Below, piece after piece: positions 5,787 through 27,014 of a stretch of 27,014 bases of DNA. The notes under the pieces were generated by a model, which saw only the letters and a program-made list of their open reading frames with translations, ran no database searches and was not told the DNA's origin. The translations under genes and the position numbers were made by a program. This DNA comes from a virus. Within the stretch, counting starts at the first letter, position 1, and every line of letters begins with the position of its first letter. Where the stretch lies: the IMG/VR virus record IMGVR_UViG_3300042449_000912, positions 1-27,014 of that record; one strand, written 5' to 3'.

Positions 5787-6935
5787 ATGAGAATAAGTGA
5801 ATTGATAGAAGCAAGGAAAAATCCAGATAAGAATCCAAAAATATCAGTATGGGACTATGTGAATGCTGAATTACCAAAAGCGGATGAAATCGCAGATGTT
5901 AGTAATATGTTTGTTAGTTTCACCACTATCGATAAGTTGGGTATCAACCCAAACTCAACATATAATACACCTCTTGGTATATACGCATATCCAGGCGAAT
6001 ATGTGCAATACAAAGCACGTTACAATACAAATGATTTACCGTTTGCTGGCGGTAGCGAATATGCTAATGTATTCAAAGTAACTGGTAATATCGTCAACCT
6101 AAGTGAACTAACATCGGCTGACGAATTGAAGTATCACCAACAACTCAGCGAAGTATATGCAACTGCAGTGAAACCCCTTGGTGTGTCATGGAAAACTGCA
6201 GTGGATACTGTATACGATTTGATAATTGAATCGGACAACAAAGCAAGGGTAAAATCACCGGGTGGAAAACTGTGGTATATAACGATGAAACTTACAACAT
6301 TACCGACAAGATCGGTGACATATGCTTGGAATACCAAACCGCATATTGCTTGGAATTCACTTTTTCGTCGAATTGGTATCGATGGTTGTATTGATAACGG
6401 GGATTCGATTATTCACCCAGTAGAACCAACCCAAGCCGTATTTTTTTCAAAAACCGTAATCAAAAACAACGTTAGATTACTCAATAAGTGGACAACTGCA
6501 TCGATTAATATGGGAACTGCTAGAGGTATGTCGGCCCAGCATGCAATTGGTAAACTAGCAAAGATGACCGATCAAGAACTCGAAGACTACGTGAAATCTG
6601 TTACACATGGTATCAAGTATGTTAAACAACCAACTGAAGAACTACAATTGGCTGCGGTTGGTAGTAATGCTAATTCTATCCAACACATCAAAAATCCAAC
6701 TGAACGAGTTCAACTATTGGCGATTACTAAAGTACCTTCGACTATAAAATACATCACAAACCCAAGTGAAGCCATCCAATTTGCCGCTGTTGCCAAAGCA
6801 GCAATATCAATACAGCATATTGACAATCCAACTGAAAAGGTTCAAAGATTAGCGATTAAGCAAGAGGGTAATGCTATGATTTACTACATCAAAAACCCAC
6901 ACCCGAATGTGTTAAAACTAGTTGGGAAAGTGTGA
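5787..6935 (+). CDS. Unknown protein with C-terminal 22-residue repeats (382 aa)
   Basis: The family of the N-terminal ~270 residues is not certain. It begins MRISELIEA, a start I associate with T4-like phage proteins, and contains GDSIIHPVEPTQAVFF near residues 205-225, which also looks like a phage-specific domain of unknown role. From about residue 270 there are four repeats with a 22-residue period and the pattern AV....SIQHIKNPTE.VQLL. They resemble the helix-pair units of DUF4116-like proteins and match the repeats in the genes at 17013 and 17878. No signal peptide or membrane segment is visible. A late-type promoter box (5751) suggests late expression, so a virion or assembly role is possible but unproven. 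A terminator follows at 6945. Confidence 0.75.
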   Translation: MRISELIEARKNPDKNPKISVWDYVNAELPKADEIADVSNMFVSFTTIDKLGINPNSTYNTPLGIYAYPGEYVQYKARYNTNDLPFAGGSEYANVFKVTGNIVNLSELTSADELKYHQQLSEVYATAVKPLGVSWKTAVDTVYDLIIESDNKARVKSPGGKLWYITMKLTTLPTRSVTYAWNTKPHIAWNSLFRRIGIDGCIDNGDSIIHPVEPTQAVFFSKTVIKNNVRLLNKWTTASINMGTARGMSAQHAIGKLAKMTDQELEDYVKSVTHGIKYVKQPTEELQLAAVGSNANSIQHIKNPTERVQLLAITKVPSTIKYITNPSEAIQFAAVAKAAISIQHIDNPTEKVQRLAIKQEGNAMIYYIKNPHPNVLKLVGKV

Positions 6936-7445: not shown

Positions 7446-7736
7446 ATGAACTTTCAAATAGCACCTAAATCAACCGAGATTCAAACCAACTGGTTTGATG
7501 CCAGATTTTATTGTTTCTCCCTTAATGTAAATGGAAAATCTGGTTGGAGATTACCTAACATAGATGAATTAAATGAGATATACCTTTCAGAAAATGATTT
7601 TGAAAAACGTTGGTATTGGTCCTCTACTGAGGATAGTGGCAACGACGCCTGGAGTCAGTATATGTCAAATGGCAGCCAGTACGGCGGCAATAAGAGCTTC
7701 GGCGGCACCTACGTTAGAGCCATCAGATCAATATAA
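7446..7736 (+). CDS. DUF1566/Lcl-type lectin-like protein 1, with DGR-like variable 3' end
   Basis: 96 residues forming one DUF1566 (Lcl C-terminal) domain, a C-type-lectin-like fold: an N-terminal IAPKSTEI strand, a DARFYCFSL helix, GWRLPNIDEL (33-42), then RWYWSSTE (55-62) and a closing VRAIRSI. No signal peptide. Residues 63-88 differ sharply from the otherwise close paralogue at 8461 and are encoded mainly by NNC/NNT codons, including six GGC, although this genome mostly writes Gly as GGT. This is what adenine mutagenesis of AAC/AAT template codons by a diversity-generating retroelement would produce, and DUF1566 is among the folds reported as DGR targets. The variable surface would be a ligand- or receptor-binding face; the ligand is unknown. 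The start is preceded only by a weak AGGT. A stem-loop begins 6 nt after the stop. Confidence 0.8.
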   Translation: MNFQIAPKSTEIQTNWFDARFYCFSLNVNGKSGWRLPNIDELNEIYLSENDFEKRWYWSSTEDSGNDAWSQYMSNGSQYGGNKSFGGTYVRAIRSI

Positions 7737-7739
7737 TAG
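7587..7739 (+). other. Candidate DGR variable region VR1
   Basis: Bases 7587-7631 match 8602-8646 at 44 of 45 positions. A stretch of 26 codons follows that differs mostly at codon positions 1 and 2, then an invariant end (TACGTTAGAGCCATCAG and beyond, from 7710). The two regions differ in length by two codons, so they are not simple recent copies of one template. The assignment is an inference from codon pattern and flank identity. Confidence 0.6.
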
Positions 7740-7741
7740 AA

Positions 7742-7764
7742 GCGAGCACCGCTAGGTGCGAGCC
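7742..7764 (+). repeat. GCGA/GAGCC stem-loop, copy 6, directly after VR1
   Basis: Arms GCACC/GGTGC, loop GCTA. It begins 6 nt after the stop codon of lectin 1 and ends 14 nt before the next ATG, next to its ribosome-binding site. Its place after the variable region resembles the hairpin downstream of the VR that Bordetella phage BPP-1 needs for retrohoming. Confidence 0.8.
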
Positions 7765-7778
7765 AATAGGAAAAACAA

Positions 7779-8102
7779 ATGATTGAAATAGCACCTAAAG
7801 AATACGAAGCGCCTCTACAATTCCAAGAAGCAAAACTATATTGCTTTTCACTTAATATTGATGGTAAAATAGGTTGGAGATTACCTACTATTGAAGAGTT
7901 GGAAAACATCTATACCTGTGTGAATGATTTTATGAAAAACGGGTGGTATTGGTCATCGACTGAAGTTGAAAACGGGGTTTGGTTTAAATCATTTAGTCGA
8001 TACCCGAAAAACGGACCAACTGGATGGAAAGATATCATCTATTTTACCGAATTTCATACAAATGTAAACTCCTGTTTAGTCAGACCAGTGAGAGACCTAT
8101 GA
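7779..8102 (+). CDS. DUF1566/Lcl-type lectin-like protein 2
   Basis: 107 residues, a single DUF1566-type domain: IAPKEYE, EAKLYCFSLNIDGKIGWRLP (helix and signature strand), IEELENI, NDFMKNGWYWSSTE, and the closing VRPVRDL. It is paralogous to its neighbours but lacks the GGC/AAC-rich variable stretch of lectins 1 and 4; its C-terminal third (Ser, Arg, Tyr, Lys, Pro) is unrelated to theirs. The ATG at 7779 has AGGAAAA a few bases upstream, right after the stem-loop at 7742. Its TGA overlaps the ATG of the next gene (ATGA), so the two are translationally coupled. Function unknown; ligand binding is the family expectation. Confidence 0.78.
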   Translation: MIEIAPKEYEAPLQFQEAKLYCFSLNIDGKIGWRLPTIEELENIYTCVNDFMKNGWYWSSTEVENGVWFKSFSRYPKNGPTGWKDIIYFTEFHTNVNSCLVRPVRDL

Positions 8103-8440
8103 CTTATTTTTCAACAAAACTTTACCCGCCAACTCCACGATTACCATGTCAACTGTCGGATTCTATGTATTGGAAGAAAATGAGTTGGGAAGAAGCCAAG
8201 ATGTATTGCTTTTCTCTTAATGACAGGGGTATAATTGGATGGAGATTACCTACGTTATTTGAGTTGAACAGTATTATATTACTAGTATCATCCCCATTAG
8301 ACTATGAATTTGAGATTTGGTCAGAAGAAAATGGACAGGACATTGCTTGGTTTATGTCTAGTCGGAATAGTCAGAGATTGGCAAGCAAGTATATGGATGA
8401 TATTTACTGTATCCCAGTTCGAGATCTAAAAGATGATTAA
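8099..8440 (+). CDS. DUF1566/Lcl-type lectin-like protein 3
   Basis: 113 residues from the ATG at 8099, which overlaps the stop of the previous gene; upstream in-frame starts lie inside that gene and are not needed. A 25-residue N-terminal extension precedes the domain: MSWEEAKMYCFSL, GIIGWRLPTLFEL, then IWSEENGQDIAWFMSS in place of the usual YWSSTE, and the closing IPVRDLKDD. The altered WSSTE region makes it one of the more divergent members. Its last codons and stop spell TAAAAGATGATTAA at DNA level, close to the intergenic motif TAAAAGATAATTGA. Role unknown beyond the lectin-like fold. Confidence 0.75.
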   Translation: MTYFSTKLYPPTPRLPCQLSDSMYWKKMSWEEAKMYCFSLNDRGIIGWRLPTLFELNSIILLVSSPLDYEFEIWSEENGQDIAWFMSSRNSQRLASKYMDDIYCIPVRDLKDD

Positions 8441-8460
8441 TACCACTGAGAAAAACCAAA

Positions 8461-8757
8461 ATGAACTTTGAAATAGCACCAAAATCAACCGAAATACTCG
8501 CCACATGGAATGATGCCCGTTTGTATTGTTTCTCTCTTATTATTGATGATAAAACTGGATGGAGATTACCCACTAAAGATGAATTAAACGAAATACACGA
8601 ATCAGAAAATGATTTTGAAAAACGTTGGTATTGGTCTTCTACTGAGTATAATGGCAACAGCGGCATCTATAGTCAGAATATGAATGGTGGCATCCAGGGC
8701 TACGGTGGCGATAAGAACTACGCCGTCGCCTACGTTAGAGCCATCAGGTCAATATAA
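8461..8757 (+). CDS. DUF1566/Lcl-type lectin-like protein 4, with DGR-like variable 3' end
   Basis: 98 residues and the closest relative of lectin 1: MNFEIAPKSTEI, DARLYCFSL, GWRLPTKDEL, RWYWSSTE, and the identical ending YVRAIRSI. Between WSSTE and YVRAIRSI the two proteins differ at most positions, while their Gly-rich frame is similar. Codons here are again mostly NNC/NNT (AAC, AGC, ATC, TAC, GCC, GTC). Upstream of base 8602 the two genes differ in the ordinary way, including at third positions; from 8602 to the first variable codon they are almost identical. This contrast suggests that the 3' part is renewed from a shared template. A stem-loop begins 5 nt after the stop. The start has no strong Shine-Dalgarno sequence. 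Confidence 0.8.
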   Translation: MNFEIAPKSTEILATWNDARLYCFSLIIDDKTGWRLPTKDELNEIHESENDFEKRWYWSSTEYNGNSGIYSQNMNGGIQGYGGDKNYAVAYVRAIRSI

Positions 8758-8760
8758 TAT
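8602..8760 (+). other. Candidate DGR variable region VR2
   Basis: The counterpart of VR1. The conserved lead-in is 8602-8646, the variable stretch is 28 codons from 8647, and the invariant 3' end starts at TAC 8731. Example VR1/VR2 codon pairs: GAT/TAT, AGT/AAT, GAC/AGC, GCC/GGC, AGC/ATC, TTC/TAC, GGC/GTC. Nearly all can be derived from AAT or AAC by changing only the A residues. Confidence 0.6.
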
Positions 8761-8761
8761 C

Positions 8762-8784
8762 GCGAGCACCGCTAGGTGCGAGCC
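8762..8784 (+). repeat. GCGA/GAGCC stem-loop, copy 7, directly after VR2
   Basis: Identical to copy 6 (arms GCACC/GGTGC, loop GCTA), starting 5 nt after the stop of lectin 4 and ending 15 nt before the ATG at 8800. The spacing to the variable region is nearly the same as in copy 6. Confidence 0.8.
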
Positions 8785-8799
8785 AATAAGGAAAATCAA

Positions 8800-9195
8800 A
8801 TGACAGACGACCAATTCCTGCAATCCTTAAAACTAAAGCCTAAGCCAGTTGAACCAATCGAGGTTTACGAGTCTTTGAATATAGAAATTGCACCCAGTCA
8901 TTACTGTAGGCAACTGACTTGGGCAGATGCAAAACTTTACGCATTTTCTTTAAACATAGACGGTAAGATCGGATGGAGATTACCTTGTGATGAAGAAATG
9001 GGTTGCTTACTTGAGAATCATCCAAGATTTAATGGTTTCTGGTATATGCAATACTGGTGTGATGTAAACAAATCCGGCCGTATAAAATCTAAAGAGTATA
9101 CTGCGTGGCTGGAACCCACTGGCCTACATTTCCAAACTCGTAATGGCGAATATGTACATAATACCGTCTTTGTCCGAGATCTAAAAGATGATTGA
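8800..9195 (+). CDS. DUF1566/Lcl-type lectin-like protein 5
   Basis: 131 residues from ATG 8800, chosen because AAGGAAA stands just upstream. A longer reading would start with a GTG inside the stem-loop at 8762. A charged 30-residue N-terminal extension (KLKPKPVEPIEVYE) precedes the domain: IEIAPSHY, TWADAKLYAFSLNIDGKIGWRLP, EEMG, and the closing VFVRDLKDD. The WSSTE motif has become FWYMQYWC, so the C-terminal half has diverged. Its end overlaps the next gene by 8 bp (ATGATTGA), which suggests coupling. Function unknown. Confidence 0.75.
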   Translation: MTDDQFLQSLKLKPKPVEPIEVYESLNIEIAPSHYCRQLTWADAKLYAFSLNIDGKIGWRLPCDEEMGCLLENHPRFNGFWYMQYWCDVNKSGRIKSKEYTAWLEPTGLHFQTRNGEYVHNTVFVRDLKDD

Positions 9196-9463
9196 GATAT
9201 CACCTAAATCATTCGAAAAGCACCTAACCCACGACGATGCTAAATTTTACGTATTTTCACTAGGCGATGGTTGGAGATTCCCAACCGTTGAGGAATTGCG
9301 AATAATACACGGGAGTGCCAATGATTTGGAAAACGAGTTGCATTTTACTAATTCCGATACGTTAGTTTCTTTTAGTTATCGGCGTTTCATCAAGTGTTTT
9401 GATCGAGATGAATGCGAAGATGATTGTTTTATCAGACCAGTCAGAGATCTAAAAGATGATTAA
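9188..9463 (+). CDS. DUF1566/Lcl-type lectin-like protein 6 (short)
   Basis: 91 residues, the most reduced member: IEISPKSFEKHLTHDDAKFYVFSL, GWRFPTVEEL, a middle part without WSSTE, and the closing IRPVRDLKDD. It starts inside the end of lectin 5 and has no clear ribosome-binding site, so translation probably depends on coupling. It ends the array; a strong terminator follows at 9472. It could be a decaying duplicate, but the frame is intact. Confidence 0.7.
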   Translation: MIEISPKSFEKHLTHDDAKFYVFSLGDGWRFPTVEELRIIHGSANDLENELHFTNSDTLVSFSYRRFIKCFDRDECEDDCFIRPVRDLKDD

Positions 9464-9626: not shown

Positions 9627-9866
9627 ATGAAACTACTTGAATTCTTTTACTTTAACGACAATTCCGATGGAATGTCTAATGATCGTCGATATGATGCGAC
9701 ACGGGATAGCTCTGTTCTTACGAAATCAGATACCCGTAAGATTAAATTGACTTTAAGACAAATTAACCAATTGAGATTATCAACCGAAGCCCATGAAGCT
9801 GAAAAGCAAGCAGAAGCAGGGTTTATTTCTCAAATGTATTCCAAACCAGTAGATGCCCAACAATAG
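9627..9866 (+). CDS. Small conserved-type phage protein (79 aa)
   Basis: 79 residues. The centre reads KSDTRKIKLTLRQINQLRLS, a basic helix pattern I associate with small uncharacterised proteins near the head genes of T4-like phages (from memory, not checked). The N-terminus (MKLLEFFYFND) is hydrophobic but too short and too acidic nearby to be a signal peptide. GGAAGG lies upstream of ATG 9627. Its last 14 bp overlap the start of the next gene, so the pair is likely coupled. It stands in the position between portal and prohead core genes; an assembly role is possible but unproven. Confidence 0.7.
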   Translation: MKLLEFFYFNDNSDGMSNDRRYDATRDSSVLTKSDTRKIKLTLRQINQLRLSTEAHEAEKQAEAGFISQMYSKPVDAQQ

Positions 9867-10452
9867 TCCCGCTTTCGTCTTAGGGAATGGTCGTAGTCGC
9901 TTGGCTATTGATTGCTCTCAATTATCAACAAATGGAACTGTTTACGGTTGTAATGCAGTTTATAGGGAATTTGACCCAGACTACTTAATTGCAGTCGATA
10001 CCAAAATGGTCAATGAAATTGTCTCAACTGGATACCAAGAAACCCACCAAGTTTGGACTAATCCCAATAGAGGGATTCATACTAAAAAGAATCTTAACTT
10101 CTTTAGTCCACACAAAGGATGGAGCTCAGGTCCAACTGCTCTTTGGTTTGCCGCATCTAATGGCCATTTGAAAATCTACATCCTTGGTTTTGACTTTCAA
10201 GGCATCGATGGAAAATTCAACAATGTCTACGCGGATACATACAATTATAAGAAGAGTAACGAAGCTGCTACTTATTACGGTAATTGGGTTAACCAAACAC
10301 AACGGATAATCGAAGAGTTTAAGCATATTAAGTTTACCAGAGTTGTTGAAGATAACGCGTTTAATCCTGAAATCTTCGGCAATTTAAAAAACTTAAATAC
10401 AGTTAGTTATAGCGAATTTCACAGCATATTTCCTAATATAACGCGAAATTAA
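9853..10452 (+). CDS. Unknown alpha/beta protein, phage head-region type (199 aa)
   Basis: 199 residues beginning with a Rossmann-like strand-loop, FVLGNGRSRLAID, followed by VYGCNAVYREFDPDYLIAVD and, later, SSGPTALWFAASNG and IYILGFDF. Together these resemble the small group of DUF115/MptE-like or sialyltransferase-like folds in which LGNG.S binds a nucleotide or nucleotide-sugar. I offer this as a fold-level resemblance only; no catalytic assignment is made. The ATG at 9853 lies inside the end of the preceding gene and has no strong Shine-Dalgarno sequence, consistent with translational coupling. It is the last gene before the head-core cluster and has no terminator after it. Confidence 0.7.
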   Translation: MPNNSPAFVLGNGRSRLAIDCSQLSTNGTVYGCNAVYREFDPDYLIAVDTKMVNEIVSTGYQETHQVWTNPNRGIHTKKNLNFFSPHKGWSSGPTALWFAASNGHLKIYILGFDFQGIDGKFNNVYADTYNYKKSNEAATYYGNWVNQTQRIIEEFKHIKFTRVVEDNAFNPEIFGNLKNLNTVSYSEFHSIFPNITRN

Positions 10453-16991: not shown

Positions 16992-17012
16992 CTAACCTTG
17001 GAATTATATTAT

Positions 17013-17744
17013 ATGACAATTCAAACAGAAGTGCCAACCTTTTTTTGGGATGCAGCAACAAAATTAATTGATGACTATCGAGAAAGTGATCAACCACTAC
17101 CAGAATTTGACTGGGTTGATGAGGATGAATGCTTCGAACTTGCAATCGCACACAATGGATACAATATACAATTTGTGAAAGAACAAACTGATGATTTGAT
17201 TTACAATGCACTTATGTCACGACCATATTCGTTGAAGTATATAACAAATCAAACAGAAGAATATTGCAAATTGGCGGTTGAGTGCAATGGATTGGCATTG
17301 AAACATGTTAGAACCCAAACTCGGGAAATCTGCATGATGGCTATTAAGAATAATCCTATGGCGTTAATGTTTGTTCATGACCAAGATCCAAAAATGGTGG
17401 AATATGCGCTTGAACTAGATCCATGCGCGATTGGATATGTGAAACACAAAACTCCTAAGATGTGCATGGATGCGATCGATCGTAACACAGAAGCATTCCT
17501 CAGAATATACAATCCATCACCAGAAATGTGCTTATATGCCATACGGAAAGATTATCGGTTGTTCGGTAACGTTAAATTCGATAAAATACCAGAAGGTATT
17601 ATCAAAGAACATCTGAAAGTGATACTAACACAGGCTTTACTTTCTATCCCCAAAGAATGGACTAGCCATTACAAAGGTAATTGGTGCTTTTATGGTCTTT
17701 CATATGATGCAGGATATGATGTATATCAAGATCATGATATTTAA
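17013..17744 (+). CDS. 22-residue-repeat (DUF4116-like) protein A (243 aa)
   Basis: 243 residues from ATG 17013; an in-frame TTG at 16998 would add five residues and is less likely. After an acidic 45-residue N-terminus there are seven consecutive units of exactly 22 residues, pattern .LAI..N..AL.FV..QT.E.C., each readable as a short helix pair, so the whole is probably an alpha solenoid. The resemblance is to DUF4116-type repeats. A C-terminal tail (WTSHYKGNWCFYGLSYDAGYD) caps it. The protein is paralogous to the next gene and shares the repeat with the gene at 5787. Solenoids usually bind proteins; the partner is unknown. No signal peptide or membrane segment. Confidence 0.75.
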   Translation: MTIQTEVPTFFWDAATKLIDDYRESDQPLPEFDWVDEDECFELAIAHNGYNIQFVKEQTDDLIYNALMSRPYSLKYITNQTEEYCKLAVECNGLALKHVRTQTREICMMAIKNNPMALMFVHDQDPKMVEYALELDPCAIGYVKHKTPKMCMDAIDRNTEAFLRIYNPSPEMCLYAIRKDYRLFGNVKFDKIPEGIIKEHLKVILTQALLSIPKEWTSHYKGNWCFYGLSYDAGYDVYQDHDI

Positions 17745-17877: not shown

Positions 17878-18570
17878 ATGGATATTGAAGAGATCTTATA
17901 TTATTATTTTGACGAGAATGAAGACGATGATTTGACAATTGACTTTCATGACTGGAGTGATCCAGAGTTTTGTTATTATGCGATGTTATGGAATGGGATG
18001 AATTTAAAGTATGCTGAGTATCAGGATGCAGGTATTCGGTATGCGGCGGTAGAGCAGAATGGAATGGCTATACAGTATGCGAAGAAAAAACCGCAGTATC
18101 TTTGCCATATGGCTGTGCAAGATGATGGTATGGCTTTGCAGTTTATAAAGAAGCAGGAACGGTATATTTGCAAGTCTGCGATTCAGAATGATCCAAGGGC
18201 ATTTAGGTTCGTAATTAAACAAGATGAAGAGTTATGTAAGTTAGCTATTGAGTTAGATCCAAGAAATATTAGATTTGTCAAAGAAAAGACACCTTTGTTA
18301 TGTAAGTTAGCGATTGATACAAATCCATTTGCTATTTTTGAGATTGAGATGCCTTCGGTTGAGCTGTGTGCATATGCGGTTATGCAGGATTTGAGAACTA
18401 TAGGTGCTGTGAATAATTATAAATTAGCGAGCCCGTGGAAGGAGTTTTTCGAGCATAATCGATTAATGGCTATGATGAAGTTTGGTGATAAGATGCTTAA
18501 AGATGGTAAAGATACATGGAGTTACAATGGAATGATGTATGCACCTGGCCTTGGCATCCCTGAATATTAA
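17878..18570 (+). CDS. 22-residue-repeat (DUF4116-like) protein B (230 aa)
   Basis: 230 residues, a paralogue of the previous gene: an acidic N-terminus (DENEDDDLTIDFHDWSD), seven 22-residue units such as MAVQDDGMALQFIKKQERYICK-type repeats, then a C-terminal tail ending WSYNGMMYAPGLGIPEY that matches WCFYGLSYDAGYD of the neighbour. The two proteins have the same number of repeats and the same ends but differ at most residues, so the duplication is old. Codon use here is rich in GCG, GAG and TTG compared with protein A. AGAGGG lies upstream of the ATG. A late box at 17841 suggests late expression. Role unknown. Confidence 0.75.
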   Translation: MDIEEILYYYFDENEDDDLTIDFHDWSDPEFCYYAMLWNGMNLKYAEYQDAGIRYAAVEQNGMAIQYAKKKPQYLCHMAVQDDGMALQFIKKQERYICKSAIQNDPRAFRFVIKQDEELCKLAIELDPRNIRFVKEKTPLLCKLAIDTNPFAIFEIEMPSVELCAYAVMQDLRTIGAVNNYKLASPWKEFFEHNRLMAMMKFGDKMLKDGKDTWSYNGMMYAPGLGIPEY

Positions 18571-18572
18571 GG

Positions 18573-18580
18573 CTAAATAC
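18573..18580 (+). promoter_or_regulatory. Candidate late promoter for tail-fibre cluster
   Basis: CTAAATAC, immediately after the repeat gene and 67 nt before the ATG at 18648. A small hairpin (GCAGA, ATCCC loop, TCTGC; 18598-18612) lies in the leader between them. Confidence 0.5.
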
Positions 18581-18647
18581 CGTATCTAAGTAATTATGCA
18601 GAATCCCTCTGCGTAGACCTAGAACGTCAACTATAAGGAGAAAACAA

Positions 18648-19031
18648 ATGGGACGTCCGTTAAAAAGAGATGTGAATGGTATTTTAGTATTTGGTACATA
18701 TACCGGTGATGCAGGTATTCGTTGCGAAGCGTATATTGGTGGAAGTAATCAAAATGACGTGTATATTGTACGTCAACGTGGTGTAAGAACTTATTTGGTA
18801 CACGACACCAGTGCGGGTACTGAAGTTATCGCACGATTGGTTGCTGGTACACCTGCTGCGGCTGGTGAAATGAGATTAACTGGCTATATTGATGGTGCTG
18901 ATACACCAGTTTACTTGAGAAAGTTAACTAAAAAATCTGCGATTGATTTTAACAACAACAAGTATCGTTGGGAATTGACCAACTATGCGGATTCAACAGC
19001 TGATCAAATCAAATTGACTCCATACGTATAA
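18648..19031 (+). CDS. Small structural-type phage protein (127 aa)
   Basis: 127 residues starting MGRPLKRDVNGILVFG. It is rich in beta-prone residues, with Tyr, Val and Gly in alternation and a closing RWELTNYADSTADQIKLTPYV. I associate the MGRPL start with small virion-type proteins beside tail-fibre genes in T4-like marine phages, but this is from memory and no function is assigned. No signal peptide. ATAAGGAG is a strong ribosome-binding site. The next gene begins 11 bp downstream with its own AAGGAG site, so the two share a transcript; a fibre-attachment or baseplate-associated part is a reasonable guess. Confidence 0.7.
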   Translation: MGRPLKRDVNGILVFGTYTGDAGIRCEAYIGGSNQNDVYIVRQRGVRTYLVHDTSAGTEVIARLVAGTPAAAGEMRLTGYIDGADTPVYLRKLTKKSAIDFNNNKYRWELTNYADSTADQIKLTPYV

Positions 19032-19041
19032 GGAGTAAGCC

Positions 19042-22000
19042 ATGGGACAAGTAATACAAATTAATGGTGATTATACCATAAAAGCCAGACGAGCCGGTGG
19101 AGCTAATGTCATGTTTGACACAGGCGAGCAAATTGGTTCAGTAACTGTTACTGGCGATTTGCATGTATTGGGAACAACTCATACATTTAACTCTCAGGTG
19201 ATTAGTGATGTAGTGCTTGTCCTAAATCGTGGTGAAACTGGTACTGGTGTTACTTTACGAAGATCTGGACTTGAGATTGATCGTGGATCGTTGGATAGAG
19301 CGGATTTCTTATTTGATGAGGATGTTAACGCGTGGACGGTAACTCATAAATTAACAGATGGGACTTATAGTTATGCAGATAGTAATCTTCAAGTACGCAA
19401 AATATTAACAGATGCTAGTACTGACAATGGCGATTTGACTTTAATTAATACTGGTACTGGTGTGGTTAAAGTTGCTGGTACTAATGCGTATGAAACACGA
19501 GTATTAGATTATACTCGATTAGCTTCGGTAGCAATAACGCACATTGAGCGTAGTTCTACGTTGCACATGATTACGGTAACTACTGCTACACCGCATGGAT
19601 TGGCAATTAATGATTATGTTGATATCCACTGTGCTACGTTTCCTGCGTTTAACGCGTCTGATAAGATCATTCTTGATAGAACTGATACAACGTTTAAGTA
19701 TGCGGATAACGGTGCTACATTTGCTATTACTCCGGTATCTGGTTATGTAATTAAAAATTCGTTGATGTGGATTGATGGGTCATCTTACGTTCCAACAGAT
19801 GATTACATTCCAAGTATGCGAACAGTATCTGATTACTCTCGTTCATTGGTTAATGCTGCTATTAGTAACTTTTCAACTAGCCATATCGAAGATCAGAACA
19901 GTAATGTTTTAGTATATGATTCAGAAACTGCAGGTGGAACATCGTATGTTAAAGTTACAGTAGATGGTATTGAAAAGATTAGAGTTGTTGGTACTGGTAT
20001 TACAACACCTGCTTCTACATTTGATTTATTGAATGAAAATGCATTGACTGTAAACTTTGCAGGTGCTGGTACATTGATTAATGTTGGTTCTGGTACTACT
20101 GGTACTACAACTAATTTGAAAAATGCTACCGTTGTTATTGGTAATGGCACGGTTTCAGCCATTACAACACCTGCTGCTACTTTTAATTTAGTTAATGATA
20201 CAGCAACTACAGTAAACTTTGCTGGTGCTGGTACATTACTCAATATTGGTTCTGATGCAGTTAGTACAACTACTAATTTGAAGAATGCGACTCTTAATGT
20301 TGGCAATGGTATTGTTTCTGCCATTACAACACCAGCCGCTACGTTTAGTTTGGTTAATACCAATGCTGCTACAGTGAACTTTGCTGGTGCTGGTACATTG
20401 ATTAATATTGGTTCTGATGCGGTTAGTACAACTACTAATTTGAAGAATGCGGAAGTTAAGATTGGTAATGCGAATGGCAATGCATCATTAACAACTCCAG
20501 CTACTACCTTTAACTTAATTGATGATACCGCAACCACAGTGAACTTTGCTGGTGCTGGTACTGCAATTCGTATCGGTGCTATTACTGGTAAAACTACAGT
20601 TCGTAATCCAGAGTTATCTGTTGGGAATGCGACTGGTGTTGGTAGTTCATCTGCAATAACTACACCATCAGAAACATTCAATTTGATTAATGGTACTGCA
20701 TCCACGATTAACTTTGCGGGTGTTGGTTCAACCATCAATATTGGTTTAGCCACTACTGGTACTATTACAAATTTAAAAAATGCGGAAGTTAAGATTGGTA
20801 ATGCGAATGGTGATGCATCATTATCAACCCCAGCTACTACTTTTAATTTGATTGATTCGATTGCAACAACCGTTAATCTTGCTGGTGCTGGTACAACTAT
20901 CAATGTTGGTTCAGGTACTATTGGTACAACCACTAATTTAAAGAATTCAGTTATTGCGGTTGGTAATGGAACTACTTCGTCAATTACAACACCTGCAACT
21001 ACATTTAACTTAGTCAATGACACTGCAACTGCAGTTAATCTTGCTGGTGCTGGTACAACCATTAATGTTGGATCTGCTACGGCTGGTACAACCACTAATT
21101 TAAAGAATGCGGTTGTTGCGGTTGGTAATGGAACTACGTCGTCAATTACAACACCTGCAACTACATTTAACTTGGTTAATGGCACTGCGACTACTGTGAA
21201 CTTTGCTGGTGCTGCAAACATAATTAATATTGGTGCTGCATTACCTGGTACAACAACAATCAATCACGATTTGGTTGTTGCTGGTACGTTAACGTTTAAT
21301 GGCTCAAATACCATTAATGCATCTACTATTTCGGTAGTAGACCCATTAATTTTCTTAGCTGATGGGAACGCGTATGATTCAGTAGATATCGGACTTTACG
21401 CAGCCTATAATGTCGGCAGTCCACCAAACCCAACACACCCATACACTGGATTAGTCCGTGATGCGAGTGATGGTATTTGGAAATTATTTAGTGGGGTTAC
21501 CGATGCGCCAGGAATAACAGTTGATTTCACTAATGCAGTTTATGATAAATTAAAAATAGGTGACTTAGCAGCAGTAAAAGGTGTATTCACCGGTGATGTA
21601 TCTGGTGTTAAAGGAACTTTTACTGGTGATTTAGCAGTTGGTAGTACGTTCAAGGCGACTGCAACCACTGGTGATCTTACAGTAAATGATTTAACCGCAA
21701 GAAAAGGTACATTTTCTGGTAATGTTTTGACAACTGGTAATATTACAGGTGTAACAATCACTGGTGCTACAATCTCTGGTACTACATTTACTGGTATTTT
21801 ACCTGCGATGATTGGTGGTAATGGTGTTTATGACAGATCGACAACTGATCAAAAAATTGCAGATGTTGCGGCTGGTTTAGCTGCTGGTGATGTAACGGTG
21901 ACGATAACGGGAAATACTGGTAGTAGTGTAGATCTCGCGGCGGCAACTGGCATTTTACCAGTACTACATGGCGGAACTGGCGCATCCGCAGCGACAGGTA

Positions 22001-22617: not shown

Positions 22618-22642
22618 AGCAGCCTTCGGGCTGCTTCTTTTT
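22618..22642 (+). terminator. Rho-independent terminator after fibre 1
   Basis: AGCAGCC, loop TTCG, GGCTGCT, then TCTTTTT. The same terminator, with the same flanks, recurs at 26058. Confidence 0.9.
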
Positions 22643-22666
22643 GTCCACAAAATATCAAAATACCTC

Positions 22667-22674
22667 CTAAATAT
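22667..22674 (+). promoter_or_regulatory. Candidate late promoter for fibre 2
   Basis: CTAAATAT, 68 nt before the ATG at 22743 and downstream of the terminator. It is duplicated at 26107 together with its surroundings. Confidence 0.5.
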
Positions 22675-22699
22675 TATCAATGACATACGTCACACTGAG

Positions 22700-22716
22700 C
22701 TAACGGAGTGCGTTAG
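22700..22716 (+). promoter_or_regulatory. Leader hairpin upstream of fibre 2
   Basis: CTAACG, loop GAGTG, CGTTAG, a perfect 6-bp stem 26 nt before the start codon. It is conserved in the duplicate leader at 26141. It may protect the mRNA 5' end or influence translation. Confidence 0.5.
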
Positions 22717-22742
22717 TTCTACTACCTATAAAGGAAAGCAAA

Positions 22743-25700
22743 ATGAGTAAAAATTTCGTTGTAAAACATGGACTTGAAATAGCCAGTGGCGGTATTACTA
22801 TTAACCAAGGCGGTCTTAATATTGTTGGTGGTGATATAACATTACCAAGCGTACTGAGAATTGGAACTGCATCTGGTGCTGATAGATTCCCAAATACCGT
22901 AGTTTCTATCTCTAATACTACAATTTCTACAAAACCATCTGAATTACACAACATTGGGTTATTAGCAGAAGGCACCGCTAATAGTTCAGACACTACAGTG
23001 TACGGTGTGGGTGTTTACGGTATTGGATATACAGCAGGCGCCACTCGTTCCGGTGGTGTTGTTGGTGAAGGGCATGTATCCGATACAACAGATACAGGAT
23101 CGGCTATTGGTGTCCGTGGGTATTCATCAGACAATCATGCCAGTGGAATGAATATTGGTTTGTATGGAAGTGCTGCTAATGGTTTAACGAATTATGCATT
23201 ATACATGCCAGCTGGTAATATCTATACCGGGTCATCGCAATCATGGACATTGGGTGGAGATCTAACTTTCTCTGGCGCATATGCTGTTACAATACCAACA
23301 TTAAGTTTAACGAATGCTTTACCTGTATTGTCTGGTGGCACGGGTGTAACAACTTCCACTGGTTCAGGTAGCGTGGTATTAAGTAACAGTGCAGCATTGG
23401 CTACTATAACAGTTGGGACATCACTAGGGACTCCGAGTACTTCGTTTAATTTAATTAACGCGAATGCCACCACAGTAAACTTTGCCGGTGCTGCATCTGA
23501 ATTGAATATATCTTCTGGTACTGGTACTACCACGATCAATAATGATTTAGTTGTTGCCGGTAATATTACGTTTGGTTCTGGTGCTACACAACTAAGTGCC
23601 ACCGTGCTTAATATCGAAGATCCATTGATTTACTTAGCAGATAATAATGTCGCTGATACGTTGGATGTTGGTATAATCGGTGCTTATAAAATTAACGACG
23701 TTCACCTACATACCGGTATAATCAGAGATGCTTCTGATAAAGTATGGAAATTATTCAGTGGGATTACTTCCGAGCCAGTTGGTAATGTACTAGATCTGAC
23801 GGATGCGGTGTACGATGATTTTCAAATAGGTAAATTGTCAACTACTGGTGTTAATAAAGTCACTATCACCGAACCTGATACTTCTGCAGTATTAACATTA
23901 GCAAACGGATCAACCTTGGCGACTTCCGGTGCTCACAGTATTACGTTAACAGCAACCGCTGATTCTGTTATAACTTTACCAACTACTGGTACTTTGGTAA
24001 GTACCACAACAACTGCATTATCTGATTTGTCAACAGTTGGTACTGTTACTACTGGTACTTGGTCCGCTTCATTTGGTGCTGTTTCTGGTGCTAACTTAAC
24101 TGACTTAACAGCAGGTAACTTATCTGGTACTATTCCCAGTACTGTTTTAGCTAATAGTTCAGTGTATATTGGTAATACTACAATCGCACTGAATCGAGAG
24201 TCTGGGGATTTGGCACTCACTGGTGTTAGTATCGATGGTGCTTCAGGTGCTTTAGCAACCACAACTTCTCCAGTAGTTGTTAGTGGTACAGCATCCCCAG
24301 CCGTTGGTCAAGTGCTAACTGCTATATCTGCTACGTCTGCTCAATGGAGTGATATCCCTGAGAGTTTGGGGAGTACTGGAACGGTAACGAGTGTAAGTGG
24401 ACAAGGTACGGTTAACGGTATTACCCTATCTGGCGTGGTAACACTCGATGGTCACTTAACATTAGGTGGTACGTTATCGGGAGTCGATTTAACTACACAA
24501 ATAACTGGTATATTACCAGTTGTAAATGGTGGTTCTGGGACAACTAGTTCTACTGGAACCGGAAATCTTGTACTAGCAACTAGTCCAGATATTGGCACTT
24601 CGTTAACTACTTCGAGTACTTCGTTTAATTTAATTAACGCGAATGCCACCACAGTAAACTTTGCCGGTGCTGCAACTGCCTTGTCCGTTGGTAGTGCGAC
24701 TGGTAATACAACAGTTAATAATAATCTAGTGGTAAGTGGTGATTTAACTGTTAATGGGACAAATAACATCATTAACACTACTAGTATCAATGTCCAAGAT
24801 CCGATGATTTCAATGGCTAGTGGTAATACAGTTAATTCAGTAGATATTGGTTTTTATGGGTTATACAACTCCAACACTACCAGTAAATATACCGGGTTTG
24901 TTCGGGATGCTAGTGATAGTAATACTTGGAAATTATTCGATAACGTACCAATATTACCTGATACTACTGTCGATTTCACAAGTGCTACTTATTCTCCAAT
25001 TAGAGTCGGTACCATTACAGGTACATCATTAAATAATGTCACGATAACTGCACCAGCAAACGGCGCGACGCTGACACTAGCAAACAATTCCACATTATCA
25101 ACCGCTGGTAATTTTACAACGACTGGTGCTTATGCCATAACACTAACCGCTACCGCTGATACCTCTGTAACATTACCAACTACTGGAACATTATTGTCAT
25201 CAGCATCGACGGTGTTTAATAAAGTAACTATCACAACACCGACTAATACCGCAACTCTGACACTAGCAAACAATTCTACACTATCAACTGCTGGTAATTT
25301 CACAACGTCTGGTGCATATCCCATAACACTAACCGCTACCGCTGCTACAACAGTAACATTACCAACTACAGGTGCATTAGTTGCAGATGGTTATACCACG
25401 ACAGCTACCGCTGCTGGTACTACCACGTTAACAAATGCAAGTACATCAATGCAAGTATTCACTGGTACTACTACACAAACTGTTAAGTTACCAGACACAG
25501 CGACTCTATCAATTGGAAAAAGGTTTACCATTACAAATAATAGTACAGGTACTCTTACTATACAGACGTCTGCTGCTGGTGCAGTTGCTACACAAACAGC
25601 TGGTACGACAGCAACGTACACCGTTGCATCAATTGGTGCGCAAACGTGGGTAAGTGCAATTGTTCCGTTGATAAGTTCGGTAAATGGGGTGGATGGTATT

Positions 25701-26036
25701 GTTTCGGATGTTTCTGGTAATTTACGTTCTATTCCACAAGTTTCAAAATCTGCAGCTTACACGTTAGTTGCTGGGGATAATGGTAAAAATATTAACATTA
25801 CGACAGGTGGTATTACTATTCCTACAAGCAGCGTGTTTATTGCAGGTGACGTAATTTCAATCTACAACCGATCGGGATCTGCTCAAAACATTTCTTGGTC
25901 GGGTGGTACGGTTTACAGTTCTGGAACTTCCGCAGCGAAATCTTCACCGTTGTCATTGGCTGCTCGTGGTATTGCAACGATAATGTTCGTAACCGGGGGT
26001 ACTTCGCCTGAAATTGTAGTATCTGGTAACGTGTAA
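22743..26036 (+). CDS. Large repetitive tail-fibre protein 2 (1097 aa)
   Basis: 1097 residues with fibre-like composition (Thr, Ser, Gly, Ala, Val). The N-terminal ~190 residues form a distinct module (NFVVKHGLEIASGGITINQG, then YGVGVYGIGYTAG and GMNIGLYGSAANG) that is nearly repeated in the next gene. The body contains two copies of the SFNLINANATTVNFAGAA unit, two of the DP.I..A..N..DSVDIG.YG / FVRDASD.WKLF block seen in fibre 1, and tandem TLANNSTLSTAGNFTT units. It closes with an adhesin-type C-terminal beta domain (GDVISIYNRSGSAQNISWSGG). There is no chaperone-like or catalytic motif. AAAGGAAAG precedes the ATG; a terminator follows at 26058. Confidence 0.82.
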   Translation: MSKNFVVKHGLEIASGGITINQGGLNIVGGDITLPSVLRIGTASGADRFPNTVVSISNTTISTKPSELHNIGLLAEGTANSSDTTVYGVGVYGIGYTAGATRSGGVVGEGHVSDTTDTGSAIGVRGYSSDNHASGMNIGLYGSAANGLTNYALYMPAGNIYTGSSQSWTLGGDLTFSGAYAVTIPTLSLTNALPVLSGGTGVTTSTGSGSVVLSNSAALATITVGTSLGTPSTSFNLINANATTVNFAGAASELNISSGTGTTTINNDLVVAGNITFGSGATQLSATVLNIEDPLIYLADNNVADTLDVGIIGAYKINDVHLHTGIIRDASDKVWKLFSGITSEPVGNVLDLTDAVYDDFQIGKLSTTGVNKVTITEPDTSAVLTLANGSTLATSGAHSITLTATADSVITLPTTGTLVSTTTTALSDLSTVGTVTTGTWSASFGAVSGANLTDLTAGNLSGTIPSTVLANSSVYIGNTTIALNRESGDLALTGVSIDGASGALATTTSPVVVSGTASPAVGQVLTAISATSAQWSDIPESLGSTGTVTSVSGQGTVNGITLSGVVTLDGHLTLGGTLSGVDLTTQITGILPVVNGGSGTTSSTGTGNLVLATSPDIGTSLTTSSTSFNLINANATTVNFAGAATALSVGSATGNTTVNNNLVVSGDLTVNGTNNIINTTSINVQDPMISMASGNTVNSVDIGFYGLYNSNTTSKYTGFVRDASDSNTWKLFDNVPILPDTTVDFTSATYSPIRVGTITGTSLNNVTITAPANGATLTLANNSTLSTAGNFTTTGAYAITLTATADTSVTLPTTGTLLSSASTVFNKVTITTPTNTATLTLANNSTLSTAGNFTTSGAYPITLTATAATTVTLPTTGALVADGYTTTATAAGTTTLTNASTSMQVFTGTTTQTVKLPDTATLSIGKRFTITNNSTGTLTIQTSAAGAVATQTAGTTATYTVASIGAQTWVSAIVPLISSVNGVDGIVSDVSGNLRSIPQVSKSAAYTLVAGDNGKNINITTGGITIPTSSVFIAGDVISIYNRSGSAQNISWSGGTVYSSGTSAAKSSPLSLAARGIATIMFVTGGTSPEIVVSGNV
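23434..23495 (+). repeat. 62-bp exact repeat within fibre 2 (first copy)
   Basis: Bases 23434-23495 are identical to 24613-24674, including silent positions, and encode the SFNLINANATTVNFAGAA unit. Perfect DNA identity over 62 bp, 1.2 kb apart, implies recent duplication or gene conversion. Confidence 0.85.
24613..24674 (+). repeat. 62-bp exact repeat within fibre 2 (second copy)
   Basis: The second copy of the segment at 23434-23495. Flanking codons differ. Confidence 0.85.
25067..25370 (+). repeat. Two tandem ~180-bp coding repeats in fibre 2
   Basis: Units starting at 25067 and 25247 encode LTLANNSTLSTAGNFTT and then ITLTATA...VTLPTTG. They are highly similar in DNA with scattered differences. 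Confidence 0.75.
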
Positions 26037-26057
26037 TTAGTAGTTTATATTGATAGT

Positions 26058-26082
26058 AGCAGCCTTCGGGCTGCTTCTTTTT
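26058..26082 (+). terminator. Rho-independent terminator after fibre 2
   Basis: A second copy of the terminator at 22618: AGCAGCC, TTCG loop, GGCTGCT, TCTTTTT. The following ~40 nt are also nearly identical. Confidence 0.9.
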
Positions 26083-26106
26083 GTCCACGAAATATCAAAA
26101 TACCTC

Positions 26107-26114
26107 CTAAATAT
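26107..26114 (+). promoter_or_regulatory. Candidate late promoter for fibre 3
   Basis: CTAAATAT, a duplicate of the box at 22667, 69 nt before the ATG at 26184. Confidence 0.5.
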
Positions 26115-26140
26115 TATGTAATGACATCAGTCAATATGGA

Positions 26141-26157
26141 CTAACGGAGTGCGTTAG
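26141..26157 (+). promoter_or_regulatory. Leader hairpin upstream of fibre 3
   Basis: A duplicate of the hairpin at 22700 (CTAACG, GAGTG loop, CGTTAG) at the same distance from the start codon. Confidence 0.5.
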
Positions 26158-26183
26158 TTCTACTACCTATAAAGGAAAGCAAA

Positions 26184-27014
26184 ATGCGTAAAAATTTCGT
26201 TGTAAAACATGGCCTTGAAATAGCCAGTGGCGGTATTACTATTAACCAAGGCGGTCTTAATATTGTTGGTGGTGATATAACATTACCAAGCGTACTGAGA
26301 ATTGGAACTGCATCTGGTGCTGATAGATTCCCAAACACAATAGTTTCTATCTCTAATACTACGTTATTTACAAAACCATCTGAATTACACAACATTGGGT
26401 TATTAGCAGAGGGCACTGCAAATGGTTCTGATACAACGGTATACGGTATCGGTGTATATGGTGTTGGTTATACGGCCGGTGGTACCAGATCAGGTGGTGT
26501 TGTTGGTGAAGGACACGTATCAGATACAACAGACACCGGTTCATCGATCGGTGTACGTGGCTATGCGTTAGATGCACATGCTGGTGGAATGAATATTGGT
26601 TTGTATGGAAGTGCTGCTAATGGTTCGGGAAATTACGCACTGTACATGGCTTCTGGTGATATCAATTCAGCAACTACACAATCGTGGTTTTTGAATGGTG
26701 ATTTAACATTTTCTGGTGCATACACCGTAACTATTCCAACATTAAGTTCTACGACGGTTAATGCGACGTCAGTTAACAATGTGACTATCACCAAACCAGC
26801 AGCCAATTCGACACTTACTATACTTGATGGAAAAACGTTAACCGCAAATAATACATTAACCTTCACTGGTACTGATTCTTCTTCTGTGAATTTTGCTGCA
26901 GGTGGTGATGTAGTTTACAAGGCGAACAAATTATCTGATTTGGCTTCTACTACTTCAACTGAATTAGCGGGTGTTATATCAGACGAAACTGGTACTGGAT
27001 CGTTGGTGTTTGCT
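26184..27014 (+). CDS. Tail-fibre protein 3, paralogue of fibre 2 (3' partial)
   Basis: 277 codons are visible and the frame is open at the window end. The first ~190 residues match fibre 2 (NFVVKHGLEIASGGITINQG, PSELHNIGLLAEGTAN, GMNIGLYGSAANG). After that it diverges into VNNVTITKPAANSTLTILDG and then LSDLASTTSTELAGVISDETG, a motif widespread in phage tail fibres. DNA identity with fibre 2 is near perfect for 26184-26410 and again for 26584-26625, but between these segments many silent sites differ. It is probably an alternative or additional receptor-binding fibre using the same attachment module. AAAGGAAAG precedes the ATG. Confidence 0.8.
   Translation, partial: MRKNFVVKHGLEIASGGITINQGGLNIVGGDITLPSVLRIGTASGADRFPNTIVSISNTTLFTKPSELHNIGLLAEGTANGSDTTVYGIGVYGVGYTAGGTRSGGVVGEGHVSDTTDTGSSIGVRGYALDAHAGGMNIGLYGSAANGSGNYALYMASGDINSATTQSWFLNGDLTFSGAYTVTIPTLSSTTVNATSVNNVTITKPAANSTLTILDGKTLTANNTLTFTGTDSSSVNFAAGGDVVYKANKLSDLASTTSTELAGVISDETGTGSLVFA

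Follow-up and report, generated by a model that had tools for sequence, protein, structure and literature searches.

Two lectin-like genes in the head-gene cluster of a T4-like jumbo phage end in stretches that, judged by their sequence, we regard with high confidence as products of a diversity-generating retroelement (DGR), and they probably are orphan variable regions, i.e. regions written by a DGR machine that acts in trans or has since been lost. The DNA analysed (hereafter the window) is a 27,014-bp IMG/VR virus record, a fragment of the phage genome. Because neither a reverse transcriptase nor a template was found, the machine is known only from its trace. The two genes (genes 1 and 4 below) are part of an extensive group of stand-alone Lcl_C mini-proteins in this phage. 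For the variable-type members of this group, a DGR reverse transcriptase would have copied, making errors at adenines, a template RNA rich in AAC/AAT, and the mutated cDNA would have replaced the C-terminal 26-28 codons between conserved flanks (mutagenic retrohoming). Reverse transcriptase and template would reside outside the phage, in a DGR of the host chromosome, of a prophage or of a co-infecting phage acting in trans, or the DGR would since have been lost, and the phage would retain a stock of diversified lectins, duplicated and recombining.

The lectin array and its surroundings

Six Lcl_C-related ORFs stand in tandem (7446-9463; Table 1) in the interval from the T4-like portal gene to the prohead protease and major capsid genes. 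Only genes 1 and 4 of the six, not 2, 3, 5 and 6, show the variable signature. The initial annotation had singled out two lectin-like genes; the signature on these two stands, but the array has six members. Alignment confirmed that genes 1 and 4 agree at 44 of 45 bases ahead of the variable region (7587-7631 against 8602-8646) and that they then differ over 26-28 codons, for the most part in the first two letters of NNC/NNT codons, and the two-codon length difference between the regions is real. The 3' end, which had been called identical, is indeed shared, albeit with one mismatch (29/30 bases the same), having the form TACGTTAGAGCCATCAG(A/G)TCAATATAATA, and the similarity runs on past it through a 23-nt hairpin element.

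Table 1. Features of the lectin array and the portal gene (window coordinates)
Feature	Position	Strand	Remarks
T4-like portal gene	1347-4967		matches to intein-splicing domains; two pairs of intein-like start/end motifs
Lectin gene 1, variable type	7446..7736	+	96 aa, Lcl_C / C-type lectin fold; Pfam PF07603 52.2 bits (cut-off 34.9)
Gene 1 5' flank	7587..7631	+	44/45 vs gene 4; 100% vs orthologue in 327-kb relative
Variable region 1	7632..7709	+	26 codons; 65.4% vs G002 orthologue
Gene 1 conserved 3' end, TACGTTAGAGCCATCAGATCAATATAATA	7710..7739	+	sits where the initiation-of-homing site would be
Hairpin element behind gene 1	7742..7764	+	GCGAG-CACC-GCTA-GGTG-CGAGCC, just past stop codon; 5-bp GC-rich stem, 4-nt loop
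Paralogous lectin gene 2	7779..8102	+	not variable between phages, 93.5% identity
Paralogous lectin gene 3	8099..8440	+	ATG overlaps gene 2 stop; not variable, 97.6%
Lectin gene 4, variable type	8461..8757	+	98 aa, Lcl_C; PF07603 38.9 bits
Gene 4 5' flank, common to gene 1	8602..8646	+	by alignment
Variable region 4	8647..8730	+	28 codons; 95.2% vs G002 orthologue
Gene 4 conserved 3' end	8731..8760	+	by alignment with gene 1
Hairpin element behind gene 4	8762..8784	+	23 nt
Paralogous lectin-like gene 5	8800..9195	+	not variable, 96%
Paralogous lectin-like gene 6	9188..9463	+	not variable, 92.5%

Genes 1 and 4 are members of Lcl_C (PF07603), both scoring above the curated cut-off, with a fold match in addition for gene 1; gene 2 reaches 34.8 of the 34.9 bits, and genes 3, 5 and 6 fall under the cut-off yet are related to 1 and 4. 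The AlphaFold2 model of gene 1 (pLDDT 96.7) has its best solved-structure match in the C-terminal domain of Legionella Lcl (8q4e, Z 13.1, 30% identity), and also matches the DGR variable protein TvpA (2y3c, Z 8.4). From this fold and the behaviour of known DGR targets, the gene 1 and gene 4 lectins would be expected to bind host-surface or other ligands. The protein encoded next to the array (9853-10452) bears a weak similarity to alpha-2,3-sialyltransferase (CST-I, PHROG 4603).

The window also encodes tail-fibre-like genes. Long internal repeats occur at 20003-21286 and 22618-26419, within the large fibre-like genes and from one to another, including 300-bp copies at 94% identity that lie 3441 bp apart. 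Another duplicated small-repeat family of the window phage is formed by the repeat proteins at 5787-6935, 16998-17744 and 17878-18570, the first two having PHROG families in common and the last two scoring for DUF4116. An Rfam freshwater-2 RNA (RF02980, 51.7 bits) was found at 18578-18650, upstream of the 18648 ORF, and the motifs in the portal gene suggest two inteins in that one gene.

Two related contigs were used throughout. The 51-kb contig G001 covers the first 26,919 bases of the window with three mismatches, so that 27 kb plus about 24.5 kb of the window phage are known, while G002 is a 327-kb close relative whose genes around the array are 89-98% identical to those of the window. Since its ends overlap (first against last 176 bp, 98.9% identity), G002 is apparently a circularly closed, complete genome. 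When the window was compared with 50,697 phage records by megablast, the sole match lay in the major capsid gene of Xanthomonas phage XaC1 (74%), the nearest isolate encountered; this phage has neither Lcl_C nor RVT_1. Gene 4 had no tblastn match at 1e-5 in the same records.

A codon signature tied to DGR templates

The genome had been said to favour GGT and the variable stretch to be rich in GGC, which the counts in G002 bear out: its glycine codons are 64% GGT and 11% GGC, whereas the variable frames hold as many GGC as GGT (18 and 18). In 13 standard-length copies most variable columns stay with one third letter, which is C in some and T in others, while nearly every base occurs at letters 1 and 2. 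For nine copies, picked solely by their 3' flank, the differences at positions 1, 2 and 3 were 0.455, 0.455 and 0.234 per codon pair in the variable region, against 0.148, 0.133 and 0.377 in the constant region (column permutation of this contrast, P = 5e-5), although the lower third-position rate taken alone is significant in only some disjoint pairs. Two pairs show the pattern most strongly. Gene 1 of G002 and a copy in the large contig G015 differ at 10, 12 and 0 sites of the three positions in 19 variable codons and at 11, 8 and 23 in 48 constant codons; for the G002 copy 240030 against window gene 1 the corresponding numbers are 8, 9 and 1 (19 codons) and 13, 6 and 27 (48 codons). Pairs that have diverged far at synonymous sites of the constant region thus still retain the third letters of the variable region. 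The share of position 1 and 2 differences that involve A, 0.706 in the variable and 0.690 in the constant region, gave no discrimination.

Restoring adenine at the variable letters yielded an inferred template word, the 18-mer GCCTGGAATCAGAATWTS, which matched 14 of 2.9 million viral contigs, 11 of them with a reverse transcriptase (RVT_1). In the three that lack RVT_1 the word sits in an unrelated frame, with no lectin frame, and these look like chance matches. Among phages, the inferred template matched Pseudomonas phage Haboob and one relative, the Haboob match (80.6% over 62 bp, with a different 3' end) adjoining an annotated RNA-directed DNA polymerase; the inferred template had no match in plasmids. 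We then took the template repeats of independent DGR contigs as the reference, leaving out the searched word, and found that the jumbo-phage copies match their third letters 69 times, where their amino acids and the codon usage of G002 lead one to expect 31.1 +/- 4.7 matches (z 8.1). As this match lies outside the searched word, it links the variable regions to templates of Lcl-type DGRs by a test that is not circular. With a leave-one-out control, third-letter matches in the constant region exceeded expectation too (153 observed, 119 expected), which reflects some common ancestry, but the excess in the variable region was stronger (110 against 62). Taken together, the codon and third-letter tests uphold the initial proposal of DGR-type variable regions on stand-alone Lcl_C (DUF1566-like) lectins within the head genes.

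Fidelity to the third-letter pattern, which was derived from the copies themselves, ranges from 9/9 down to 3/9 tested letters per copy. Codons 15-16 come either as ATG-TC(A/G) or as TTC-NNC and, in view of this and of the 26- and 28-codon lengths, the copies did not all arise from one template by A-only mutation; the difference at codons 15-16 requires two templates, or recombination as well.

Search for reverse transcriptase and template

The initial annotation had proposed to look for a DGR reverse transcriptase and for a non-coding template repeat, and neither turned up. No RVT_1 match was obtained in the window, in G001-G003, G012, G015, G061 or G062, or in any of the 41 contigs whose capsid (MCP) genes are related, whereas the domain was detected in the positive controls, BPP-1 and DGR contigs. 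A profile of 14 DGR reverse transcriptases, run in maximum-sensitivity mode, found nothing in the window, G001, G002, G003, G012, G015 and G062 (best E 1.8; controls 1e-184 and 1e-119). Outside the lectin ORFs no template repeat was seen in the window or in G001-G003 (nhmmer in max mode gave three matches, all with E over 6). The Avd profile PF05635 misses even the BPP-1 control and so has no power here.

A matching template would be expected to carry the 3' end TACGTTAGAGCCATCAGA after its AAY codons. Apart from relatives and chance matches, no template with the same 3' end was found in the viral contigs or in 84,980 species genomes. Among these sampled sequences the exact core of the gene 1 3' end itself recurs only in relatives and in two chance matches. 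The single match of CTACGTTAGAGCCATYAGA in the species genomes lies inside a recombinase-like gene, and a shorter form of it gave one extra match in the viral contigs, in a reductase-like gene; both were judged to be chance. AAYTAYGTTAGAGCNRTNMG had no template-like match in viral contigs. We therefore hold with high confidence that no detectable DGR is present in G002, an absence established for this relative and not for the window phage, whose genome is mostly unsequenced. Of the original suggestion that the phage carries a DGR or recently had contact with one, contact is supported and carriage is not, neither component being found in the window or in the 327-kb relative. It had further been argued that a lack of reverse transcriptase and template, together with variation spread evenly over codon positions, would speak against a DGR; the former is what was found, but the variation is clearly uneven.

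The lectin family and a dispersed hairpin

Iterated profile searches identified 82 related ORFs in G002 (Pfam Lcl_C gives 62 matches, with E up to 1), in 21 clusters; the ORFs take up 7.5% of the 327-kb genome and mostly have 70-130 aa. About 28 of the 82 have a YWSS...R(A/P) frame and count as variable type. The large contigs G012 and G015 hold 43 and 46 Lcl-like ORFs, respectively, whereas Lcl_C is missing from each of the 41 contigs in which the capsid genes are related, which indicates that the expansion is lineage-specific. Another large phage contig (G061, L200; 306 kb) encodes two- and three-domain Lcl_C proteins, one of which has a variable frame near-identical to that of a G002 gene, a similarity in sequence that likely reflects horizontal exchange.

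The 23-nt element behind genes 1 and 4 has the consensus GCGAG-NNNN-G(C/A/T)TA-N'N'N'N'-CGAGCC, in which the flanks are fixed and changes in the stem compensate each other. It occurs in the window at 1252, 5084(-), 5136, 5714, 6999, 7742, 8762 and 9532, with four stem sequences, and in G002 in 34 paired copies with nine stem sequences, and is absent from G015. In G002 it lies directly downstream of 5/28 variable-type genes and of 0/54 other Lcl genes, yet 29 of the 34 copies are not directly behind an Lcl gene. Phage DGR targets are followed by a GC-rich hairpin/cruciform with a 7-10 bp stem and a GRNA tetraloop (PMC3240598), compared with a 5-bp stem and mostly a GCTA loop here. The hairpin may be a general element that is reused behind lectin genes.

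Change between close phages and the origin of the variable regions

Between the window and G002, two phages of about 95% identity, gene 1 is unchanged in its 5' flank (45/45) and nearly so in its 3' end (26/27), whereas its variable region is only 65.4% identical; genes 2, 3, 4, 5 and 6 are 92-98% identical throughout. The variable region of gene 4 has not recently been rewritten as a whole, and where gene 4 differs from G003 the differing part is the 5' half. The usual polarity of DGR conversion is the opposite. At a further locus, at 97.6 kb, the variable-region protein is the same in G002 and G062. Hence one locus (gene 1) has been rewritten since the window and G002 split and two have not (gene 4 and the copy at 97.6 kb), and since these two static loci are near-unchanged between close phages the rewriting activity is rare or over. 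A locus at 15.6-16.2 kb of G001 differs from G002 in whole genes and is uninformative on the variable region alone. The 5' part of gene 1 differs between the window and G002 as well; here the alignments point to a deletion in the window by which the 5' part of an adjacent paralogue became joined to gene 1, whereas in G002 this paralogue is still a gene of its own. Exact blocks common to the variable regions of different loci do not exceed 16 nt, save for one pair with 23, and being so short they imply that the variable regions are not copies of each other.

Retrohoming would account for these regions, and the machine may since have been lost or may act in trans. Loss, in which a DGR wrote the regions long ago and duplication, deletion and homologous exchange now shuffle the alleles, is quite possible, if somewhat short of probable. 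It agrees with the lack of reverse transcriptase and template in the apparently complete G002, with visible gene turnover such as the apparent deletion fusion of window gene 1, with a third-letter fidelity that varies as decay would have it, with the two static loci, and with the ATG-TCA versus TTC-NNC difference in gene 1, which needs exchange or a second template. On the other hand, some copies have all nine tested third letters intact despite diverged constant regions, no long variable blocks are common to different loci, and the window gene 1 allele has no donor among the known copies (most of the window phage genome being unsequenced). That a host or prophage DGR acting in trans diversifies dozens of lectin mini-genes of a jumbo phage without a reverse transcriptase of its own seems rather unlikely, though by no means negligible.

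One may also consider that the window phage encodes reverse transcriptase and template in its unsequenced part and that G002 lost both, given how little of the window phage is known and that gene 1 has changed since the split from G002. We consider this improbable, as the 51 kb of G001, G002 itself, the Lcl-rich G012, G015, G061 and G062, and the 41 MCP-related contigs are all devoid of a detectable reverse transcriptase. Very improbable is a mechanism like that of antigenic-variation systems, in which silent cassettes serve as donors for gene conversion: one genome does house paralogues by the dozen, with conserved flanks, and two loci do have one 23-nt block in common, but conversion moves whole blocks, of which the others between loci are of 16 nt or less, and it would not leave letter 3 in place where letters 1 and 2 are scrambled. 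That a fast-evolving lectin surface was shaped by ordinary diversifying selection, without any retroelement, is scarcely plausible, for even though Lcl_C proteins generally vary in this region and some residues (Asn, Asp, Tyr and Ser among them) favour NNY codons, the third letters are template-like with amino acids and codon usage controlled, and the unchanged flank of gene 1 adjoins about 35% changed sites, while selection does not raise the mutation supply in one 78-bp stretch alone.

Comparison with known systems and implications

The closest parallels to the orphan variable regions proposed here are DGRs with Lcl_C/DUF1566 targets (IMG/VR contigs G005, G013, G014 and eleven of G063-G076), which have the same target domain with the variable region at the 3' end of the gene; Stenotrophomonas sp. 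SKA14 has such a DGR (PMC6642488). As in the jumbo-phage copies, one finds the template frame GCC TGG (A/T)AT CAG AAT TTC AAC AAY GGC AAC CAG with scrambled adenine letters. However, those DGRs have reverse transcriptase and template near the target and a handful of targets, whereas here there are about 28 variable-type genes and neither component is detectable, and the 3' end encodes YVRAIR here and RARAVR there. Mtd of Bordetella phage BPP-1, diversified by Brt, likewise has a C-type lectin fold, a C-terminal variable region and, just behind the stop codon, a GC-rich hairpin whose loop is of 4 nt, although that hairpin has an 8-bp stem and a GAAA loop (PMC3240598) in place of the 5-bp stem seen here. 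Unlike G002, BPP-1 encodes its own reverse transcriptase and template, and Mtd is a large tail protein, whereas the present lectins are lone domains of ~96 aa in a head-gene cluster. In Legionella pneumophila Lcl the matching C-terminal domain is part of a long collagen-like adhesin, while gene 1 is stand-alone. TvpA of Treponema denticola, a DGR variable protein with the same general fold as gene 1, is bacterial and larger, and is served by a cellular DGR.

Surveys of DGRs begin at the reverse transcriptase and seek adjoining targets, and the largest of them states that remote targets would be missed (PMC8144416); here targets were found without the enzyme. Up to eight similar target genes have been described in Treponema denticola and Stenotrophomonas (PMC10743442), a number well exceeded by the variable-type genes of G002, and no C-type-lectin domain of the FGS type was reported when 224 jumbo phages were surveyed (PMC7824862). 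The third-letter test can detect orphan variable regions in any genome. If it is true that the diversifier acts from outside, retroelement-driven diversity would be a resource common to host and virus; if, instead, the DGR was lost, these genomes would record how diversified repertoires outlast the machine.
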